From Candidatus Saccharimonadota bacterium (GTDB taxonomy: Bacteria; Patescibacteriota; Saccharimonadia; Saccharimonadales; Saccharimonadaceae): 64,000 nucleotides of DNA. Every line of letters begins with the position of its first letter. The stretch's first letter is position 1. Under the pieces are notes generated by a model. It did not search any database, was not told the DNA's origin, and worked only from the letters and a program-made list of their open reading frames with translations. This document shows, in pieces, positions 47,190-49,095 of this stretch. The stretch lies in assembly GCA_017561575.1 (NCBI GenBank), contig JAFZBS010000010.1:1-64000 (forward strand), given 5' to 3'. Position numbers and translations under genes: made by a program.

Positions 47190-47626
47190 AAATAACAACT
47201 TTAACTGAATACACACCCGAAACCGCCAATCGAATCAGGGAACTCCTAATTCAGCTTTCGCGTAGTGGCAAAGACCGCGGCGAAATCCCCAAAGAATGGT
47301 TTGACGAACTGATTGCTTCCCCATTTCATGACATGCTTCTTGCAATTGACGATGACGGTAAAATCCAAGGTATTGCCACTGTGTCCGTCATCATGGGACC
47401 TATCGTTCGCAAAAACTCCTATCTAGAAGATTTTGTTACCGACAAAGCCGTTCGCGGCAAAGGTGTAGGCAGCCTTCTTTGGGAAGCTATTTTGCAATGG
47501 TCTATGGCCCATGGTTGCAAAGAGCTCAACTTTACTTCCGGTCAAGGTCGCGAAGAAGCCTGGAAATTCTACCAAGGAAGAGGTGCCGAAATCTACGAAA
47601 CCAATTTCTTCCGAAAAACTATATAA
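47186..47626 (+). CDS. GNAT acetyltransferase, possibly GNA1-like
   Basis: 146 residues. GNAT fold with acetyl-CoA loop VRGKGVGSLLWEAI (about 90-103) preceded by YLEDFVTDKA, and C-terminal EEAWKFYQGRGAEIYET. Overlaps glmM by 4 bases, so it may acetylate a glucosamine phosphate as eukaryotic GNA1 does. That is inference from context; generic GNAT is certain. The 3' end overlaps the convergent polymerase gene by 34 bases. Confidence 0.85.
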   Translation: MKITTLTEYTPETANRIRELLIQLSRSGKDRGEIPKEWFDELIASPFHDMLLAIDDDGKIQGIATVSVIMGPIVRKNSYLEDFVTDKAVRGKGVGSLLWEAILQWSMAHGCKELNFTSGQGREEAWKFYQGRGAEIYETNFFRKTI

Positions 47627-49095
47627 AAAACTACCGGTAATATATATATCTGCAACGCATTTGCAAAACCAGAGAAGAAGAATAAAGATACCGCGTAAGC
47701 TACCAACAAAGGGAGCAATAATGCGCTAGCTGGACTTTTTGCAAAAACCCTAAATAACAAAACGACAACGATCAACGCCAGTACAACACCAACGAGCCCA
47801 AGTTCTAACAGTACGCTCGCATACTCATTTTGCACTATTTCTTTTGGCGACCAAATTAGTCCTTCATCATACATCGCTTTTCCTGCACCACCAATTCCTA
47901 CCCCGATTGCTACATTCTTAAAATCTTTCGACCACACCTTTATAGCATTACGCGTCAGTTCCATTCGGATATTCGTAGACTCCTCCACATAGCCATCATA
48001 AACTGGAGCATCATCAGGTATGTTCACCGGCACATCGTCAGATTCCTTCTCCCTAACATCAATTATTCCAAGCGACAAATGATTTAATACTTTTGCCACC
48101 GCCGATCCATACGTAGTACTAGTTGGTCCTACAGCCGCCATAATTCCTTGCAAATTAAGTACGGAAAGAAAAGAGAGAATTATCACCCCCCAAACCATCA
48201 TTAATCTTTTTACAATTTTTTTCCTCTCCCGCACCAACAAGAATCCACTCATAAACATCATTGCCACAATGAATGAATAAATTGCTCCTCGCGAAAACGT
48301 CAAAAACAGTGTGGATACAATTATAAAGAAATAGAATAATAAGAATTTGGGGCATAAAAAGCGCGAACCGGAGTGATTTTTACAACGATCACGGAGCGAA
48401 TCACGAAACTGCAATTTCGTGTGAGCTCCGACTGATCCGTTGTAAAAATTATCACCGCGAGAGCGCTCCTGTCCCAAATTCTTATTATTCTGTTTCTTGA
48501 AGTATAACCACACTGCCACTAACGCTGGCGCAAGAAGCAAATTTCCCATAAATTGTGGTTCTATAGCAAATCCATTCGGATGCGGAAAACCAAACATTTG
48601 CGACACACAACCAGGACACATCAACGTCTGTTCTCTAGATAAACCCGCTACGTCAAGAATGCTTTGCACTAAGCACCACCCACACACAAGAAGCGACGAC
48701 AAGAATAATCCTTTCAAAAAATTCCGACAAAAATCTTCTTTGTTCCCCACAATATCACGAAGCGAAACAACAGCCAGACCAGCAAAATAAACCAGCCACA
48801 TTATCCCGACCGTCAGTATTCCTCGAACCAAATTCAATGACCAAATCAAAGACAAGCTAGCAAAAATAGGGAATAGAAGCATAGTCCACCATTTAAAGAT
48901 TCCGCCTAATCTTTTTTCTCGAACCAAAAGCACTAAAGAAACTAAATCAAAAAGCACCAACCATATCAACGGCAGGGAAAGTTCAAAATTCATTGTATTG
49001 TCAGAACCAAAAGTGATAATCGGATAATACGAAAAGAAAAGTACTGCCGGCAAAGCATAAATCAATCCTTTAAAAACCTTATTTAGTTTTTTCAT
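47593..49095 (-). CDS. O-antigen ligase/polymerase-like membrane protein (Wzy/WaaL type)
   Basis: 500 residues with about 12 hydrophobic helices and the FLTFSRGAIYSF segment typical of WaaL/Wzy proteins, plus a large outer loop (about 310-400). Probably polymerises or ligates the exopolysaccharide made by the two upstream genes. A 159-bp palindromic element (48333-48491) is embedded in frame and adds a hydrophilic stretch between two helices. Overlaps the upstream glycosyltransferase by 17 bases. Confidence 0.85.
   Translation of the reverse strand: MKKLNKVFKGLIYALPAVLFFSYYPIITFGSDNTMNFELSLPLIWLVLFDLVSLVLLVREKRLGGIFKWWTMLLFPIFASLSLIWSLNLVRGILTVGIMWLVYFAGLAVVSLRDIVGNKEDFCRNFLKGLFLSSLLVCGWCLVQSILDVAGLSREQTLMCPGCVSQMFGFPHPNGFAIEPQFMGNLLLAPALVAVWLYFKKQNNKNLGQERSRGDNFYNGSVGAHTKLQFRDSLRDRCKNHSGSRFLCPKFLLFYFFIIVSTLFLTFSRGAIYSFIVAMMFMSGFLLVRERKKIVKRLMMVWGVIILSFLSVLNLQGIMAAVGPTSTTYGSAVAKVLNHLSLGIIDVREKESDDVPVNIPDDAPVYDGYVEESTNIRMELTRNAIKVWSKDFKNVAIGVGIGGAGKAMYDEGLIWSPKEIVQNEYASVLLELGLVGVVLALIVVVLLFRVFAKSPASALLLPLLVAYAVSLFFFSGFANALQIYILPVVFYIVFRKKLVS
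48333..48491. repeat. In-frame palindromic insertion element
   Basis: Perfect 19-base terminal arms (48333-48351, 48473-48491), further inner arms (GTGATTTTTACAACG / CGTTGTAAAAATTATCAC; CACGAAA/TTTCGTG). Total 159 bp, exactly 53 codons, all open in the host gene's frame. Resembles Rickettsia palindromic elements in behaviour, not sequence. Confidence 0.8.

Follow-up and report, generated by a model that had tools for sequence, protein, structure and literature searches.

A palindromic element family inserted in frame in genes of one gut Saccharibacteria genus, with arms apparently copied from host DNA

The palindrome that interrupts a polymerase gene of this Saccharibacteria genome belongs to a family of palindromic elements found in one genus of gut Saccharibacteria. 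We put the probability at roughly 0.8 that this family is mobile and non-autonomous, that it rides as an in-frame passenger in its host genes, and that its arms are copied from the host and arose by template switching. Its core is a nucleic-acid hairpin of about 112 nt under structural constraint, whose insertion sites are intergenic DNA and, in frame, variable loops of conserved proteins.

The host gene in the window, by which we mean the whole 64-kb stretch of DNA analysed, is an ORF of 500 aa that matches Wzy_C (PF04932) with E = 1.7e-10 in a domain profile search and has a match in 76 of 80 congeners. Perfect 19-bp arms start at 48333 and end at 48491, and the 159 bp that they span (53 codons) are free of stops in the frame of this minus-strand ORF. 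These arms form the longest perfect inverted repeat of the whole window, and perfect inverted repeats in 20 simulated windows (first-order Markov) reached at most 14 bp. With two mismatches allowed, the arms lengthen to 29 nt (48326-48354 and 48470-48498, 93% complementary); inner arms lie at 48376-48387/48438-48449 and 48402-48411/48412-48421. Folded as RNA, the palindrome reaches -82.5 kcal/mol, compared with -37.3 for shuffled sequences (z = -11.25). The original prediction, made from the sequence alone, had described an open, in-frame 159-bp insertion in a polymerase gene, with perfect 19-bp arms and extra inner arms, and it was borne out on each of these points. The features are as follows.

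47593..49095, minus strand: host gene for a Wzy/O-antigen-ligase-like membrane protein of 500 aa (ORF; PF04932), with the palindrome inside in frame
48358..48469, plus strand: conserved core, family 1 type B (111.3 bits with covariance model R1; compensatory changes in 17 of the 33 consensus pairs across nine copies)
48374..48451, plus strand: central hairpin with the motifs CAAC(R)GTCACGG ... ACTGNAAT ... CCGACTGA..GTTG, conserved among copies
48326..48354, plus strand: outer arm on the gene-downstream side, probably the original host sequence (inverted repeat, 93% complementary; homologous to the flank of empty-site orthologues)
48470..48498, plus strand: outer arm on the gene-upstream side, probably an inverted copy of the other flank (missing from empty-site orthologues)
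About 48307..48515, no strand: whole arm complementarity, fading outward (CAGTGTGG...CCACACTG), from a fold of the loop region

The 159-bp span is merely the stretch bounded by the perfect arms; the core of the element occupies approximately 48358-48469, and the flanking arms derive from the host. The plus strand is the element's own orientation, and the wzy gene reads it antisense. The arm at 48326-48354 encodes KFLLFYFF, the beginning of a conserved helix, and that at 48470-48498 encodes KKQNNKNLG. In Wzy alignments the insert falls within a variable loop; its position between two membrane helices, as the original prediction had it, is tentative. Structure prediction was set aside as a means of placing it, given an AlphaFold model with a mean pLDDT of 56 in which residues ~200-250, insert included, score 31-41 and rank among the least confident stretches. 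An Rfam search of the window at gathering thresholds returned tRNAs only.

A BLAST search of the same genome with the element recovered the mirror match and a second copy, which sits in ileS on contig 8. Congeners carry copies in the same wzy loop (genomes G024 and G017), at a different site of wzy (G011), in further genes and in intergenic DNA, and an alignment of nine cores revealed compensatory changes in 17 of the 33 consensus pairs. The palindrome served as the basis of a covariance model, which matched 95 of the 174 genomes of the window's genus, which inhabits the ruminant gut, at E <= 0.01, with up to 21 matches in one congener genome; some weak matches at this threshold may be other hairpins or the reverse strand of a copy already counted. 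When the order was scanned at E <= 1e-6, 45 of 393 genomes were positive, all of them in the window's genus, and no family 1 match to the model was found at this threshold in the other 155 of the 156 genera sampled. A degenerate DNA pattern searched across 84,980 species found 76 stretches, 74 of them in Saccharibacteria MAGs, whose named sources are the guts of sheep, goat, yak, roe deer and buffalo. The two remaining stretches, from genomes outside Saccharibacteria, and two viral contigs that also carry the pattern are chance matches because they fail the covariance model. A phage or plasmid vector for the element was sought, with no match in either collection. Many intergenic copies (L088, L100-L131) form a subclass with AAAC/GTTT termini, unlike the two coding subclasses.

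Approximately 32 of the 77 family 1 copies examined lie in frames running well past both of their ends, and others lie between genes. Curated models identify the hosts as ileS, valS, ObgE, TruB, FemAB and a P-type ATPase, in addition to Wzy. The valS of genome G130 contains two copies, and wzy harbours the family at two sites. The second wzy site is at the extreme N-terminus (L033, L077, L087), with the start codon upstream of the element, and remnants occur there in L072, L123, L300 and L316.

All 16 sense copies share a reading frame of the element, and 14 of the 16 antisense copies share another; the two deviating antisense copies have altered inner sequence. The coding copies had been chosen as open, and what is informative is the constancy of their frame together with the contrast with intergenic copies, of which 6 of 44 are open in the same frames. 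By our reading of the sequence, one of the two deviating copies, L123 (the same wzy as L301), has lost one base and gained one base in opposite arms, and its inner peptide is altered while the outer frame and the hairpin are retained. Such keeping of the frame despite a changed inner peptide points to translation as a tolerated passenger. We conclude from these sequence comparisons that coding copies appear to preserve the frame and not the peptide, and that translation of the insert, as a passenger of about 50 residues, is very probable. In Rickettsia, an active protein product has been shown for a gmk gene bearing a Rickettsia palindromic element (RPE).

Two other accounts of the coding copies deserve consideration. 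The presence of very stable hairpins within essential genes could mean that the insert is skipped or removed in RNA, by ribosome bypassing or splicing, leaving a normal protein. Bypassing would not need an open frame, yet the coding copies, even remnants and altered ones, are stop-free and a multiple of three in length, while most intergenic copies are interrupted in those frames, and we regard this account as very improbable. Alternatively, the encoded peptide might be a useful added Wzy domain under selection on its sequence, given that a recognisable peptide is common to type B copies in about 13 species. This has similarly little to recommend it, since orthologues lack the peptide, carry an unrelated palindrome in its place or read it internally out of the usual frame, and since a second family, described below, is read in several different frames.

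Orthologous genes contain the loops in an empty state. The conserved YK/KR and ADL motifs of obgE are 27 nt apart at an empty site and 192 nt apart where the element is present, and most congeners sampled have a loop of two residues; truB and wzy likewise have short empty loops in orthologues. Decay is also visible, as the truB of G011 retains a partly deleted copy ("DDCEPSMLKN") and several wzy N-termini contain fragments of the element. At the insert loop of the window's gene, wzy orthologues are empty, hold a remnant or hold an unrelated palindrome of the second family, and the case of all orthologues sharing a conserved, non-palindromic loop did not arise. On a wzy tree of 35 tips, loops with a family 2 or a family 1 insert, loops with an arm-only palindrome and empty loops are intermingled, with at least 16 state changes compared with 17.8 when labels are shuffled. 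Turnover at this loop is rapid, and horizontal exchange of wzy might add to the scatter of states on the tree. Arms that lack a core occur at the loop in L306, L308, L311 and L316, and these could be either remnants or pre-insertion hairpins.

Family 2 is a GC-rich palindrome (about 76%) with a three-way junction, unrelated to family 1, that occupies the same loops in other species. It was found in 89 of the 393 genomes of the order, belonging to the window's genus and two other genera of the same family. The window's own genome has 18 matches, none of them in the 64-kb window, and the hosts there include DNA polymerase I, DnaX, AlaS, ArgS, MnmA, TrmD, LepA and QueA. The 25 strongest copies in ten loci all lie within reading frames, in several different element frames. 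We also observed that family 2 copies are nearly all in frame, with leuS among the genes that contain them (L339-L348, L326 and L349-L365, on contigs 3, 4, 5, 8 and 9 of the same genome and in congeners), and that they are clustered in this genome (G000), contig 5 (60 kb) holding 7 or 8 copies and contig 8 (35 kb) 3 or 4. An additional palindrome, GGGTGACGCCGCT..GGGGGACCCCC..CAGGACCCGT, is shared by ileS of L040 (peptide RNEASTVGETAVAGPVERPG) and obgE of L244, and it may represent a third coding family.

The conserved structure with its compensatory changes, intergenic copies included, is also what would be expected of an RNA regulatory or processing hairpin (an attenuator, an RNase III site or a terminator) selected site by site. 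However, the hairpins are spread over unrelated genes and loops, are missing from most orthologues and are exchangeable with those of another family, and we therefore consider this explanation improbable.

Beyond the core, nearly every site bears its own inverted flanks. In a flank-swap test that omitted the conserved element ends, 69 of the 77 copies exceeded the 95th percentile of swapped flanks in the pairing of their own, and this held for coding and for intergenic copies. In a comparison of 13 wzy sequences over 24 arm positions, 21-24 matched between the arms of a single species and 15.3 between arms from different species, and 18 of the 24 have more than one type of Watson-Crick pair. 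At five coding sites (obgE, truB, ileS and the two in wzy), alignments read by eye, as distinct from a scored test, indicate that empty-site genes have a homologue of the downstream flank and that the upstream arm is extra sequence, the reverse complement of the downstream flank. The outer arms are, to judge from these comparisons, not element sequence but inverted copies of local host DNA. This was unexpected; the original prediction was right in substance but overlooked it. Two other possible sources of the covariation between arms are selection on an RNA stem and independent insertions that happened repeatedly.

That the arms come from the host points to snap-back, template-switch synthesis, which we consider the likeliest mechanism. 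A nascent strand would copy or capture the element during DNA synthesis, and the element's hairpin would then fold that strand back on itself. The strand would be copied a second time over 20-50 nt before synthesis returned to the original template, and later template switches would keep the two arms matched. Such a course of events would leave a one-sided inverted copy of the flank with the hairpin in its middle. The opposite order, arm first and element later, could also have occurred and is compatible with the core-less arms in wzy. Template switching has been documented both to create and to repair hairpin stems, and template-switch mutations likewise make inverted copies and homogenise arms; the parts of these reports available to us describe no tie to a mobile element core (PMC8794818, PMC8604942).

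We also considered a conventional MITE or REP-like element whose transposase is encoded elsewhere and which targets pre-existing hairpins or makes inverted target copies. REPIN/RAYT and other MITEs are likewise short, repeated, non-autonomous hairpins, and terminal inverted repeats, multiple copies, intergenic copies and a hairpin with conserved bulges would all fit. REPs are mainly extragenic. However, a Y1 transposase (PF01797) was found in 3 of 99 congeners and not in the window's own genome, so most carriers lack the RAYT-type enzyme and it is ruled out as the mover for most genomes. In addition, the flanks inspected bear site-specific inverted, not direct, duplications, and the empty wzy, obgE and truB loops contain no pre-existing palindrome of that size. 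We consider an element of this kind unlikely, the transposase search having covered Y1 and reverse transcriptase.

Of 170 congeners, 93 encode reverse transcriptase domains (PF00078), for the most part within ORFs some 350-450 aa long (for example at L319-L323 and at G000:C3:20292-20837), and these are possibly diversity-generating retroelements. Reverse transcriptase was rejected as a required mover, since the carriers G017, G024 and G141 lack it. A responsible enzyme was thus not found among the mover families searched (Y1 and reverse transcriptase). Returning to template switching, we tentatively entertain, at somewhat less than even odds, a distinct class of mobile hairpin that would spread through essential genes by this route without a transposase and copy its flank in inverted form on arrival, with at least two unrelated core families using the same route and loops in one genus. 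If so, each copy would be locked into a site-specific palindrome.

The original prediction had likened the window's palindrome to RPEs, and the resemblance holds for size, folding, the in-frame position in coding sequence and the use of hotspot loops. RPEs are described, in the portions of the literature available to us, as palindromes of 100-150 bp that form long stem-loops (Ogata et al. 2000; PMC2229807, PMC3767692), with short terminal inverted repeats, of 12 bp in one account (PMC2229807). Together with Wolbachia palindromic elements, they comprise several families, genic and intergenic, that lie in frame in conserved protein genes and share hotspots (PMC2229807, PMC3767692). The Saccharibacteria element has a core of about 112 nt plus arms (z of -11) and copies dispersed within genomes (the window and ileS in its own, as many as 21 matches in a congener); 32 copies across the genus are coding, with empty-site orthologues. 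It too occurs between genes, and several families share hotspots. From those same portions, the RPE host genes are alike in kind (isoleucyl-tRNA synthetase, O-antigen ligase and tRNA ribosyltransferase-isomerase). The differences are that it belongs to another phylum, without a sequence match to RPEs that we could find, and that its arms are inverted host flank that changes from site to site, while the RPE descriptions available to us mention no host-derived arms. The scan of 84,980 species with the degenerate pattern, an exact-match scan whose reach stops short of remote homology, returned no match in Rickettsiales. It is best named an independent, RPE-like element with host-derived arms, common descent being unsupported by the sequences compared.

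Other small palindromes resemble it in part, as far as the sections of the sources available to us go. The coding palindromic repeats of Methanocaldococcus jannaschii and the enterobacterial ERIC, YPAL and RU are likewise small, mobile and palindromic, have open frames and are in some cases joined in frame to a gene (PMC2229807, PMC2759123). ERIC and YPAL, by the same accounts, are mostly intergenic and have target-site duplications, whereas the Saccharibacteria element lies in conserved essential genes with no direct duplication apparent. Nematomorph mitochondria have long perfect inverted repeats within translated genes, in which, unlike in our element, both arms encode conserved protein regions and no mobile core is described in what we could consult (PMC6649704). 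The absence of a prior description in this phylum, also part of the original prediction, agrees with our literature search, which linked no "palindromic element" with Saccharibacteria, in a body of literature where subscription journals were thinly covered.

The best-known examples of in-frame coding palindromes come from Rickettsia and Wolbachia. The hosts here are parasitic bacteria with reduced genomes, in which an element appears to have spread in frame through essential genes of a whole genus, seemingly leaving them intact, and its inserts account for otherwise puzzling additional residues in aminoacyl-tRNA synthetases and further proteins of the Saccharibacteria group. The empty, filled, replaced and decayed states of a single loop, together with the host-derived arms, make the long-standing question of how such elements move directly testable. 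This apparently independent and dense case in Saccharibacteria suggests that in-frame palindromes are a recurrent outcome in host-dependent bacteria.
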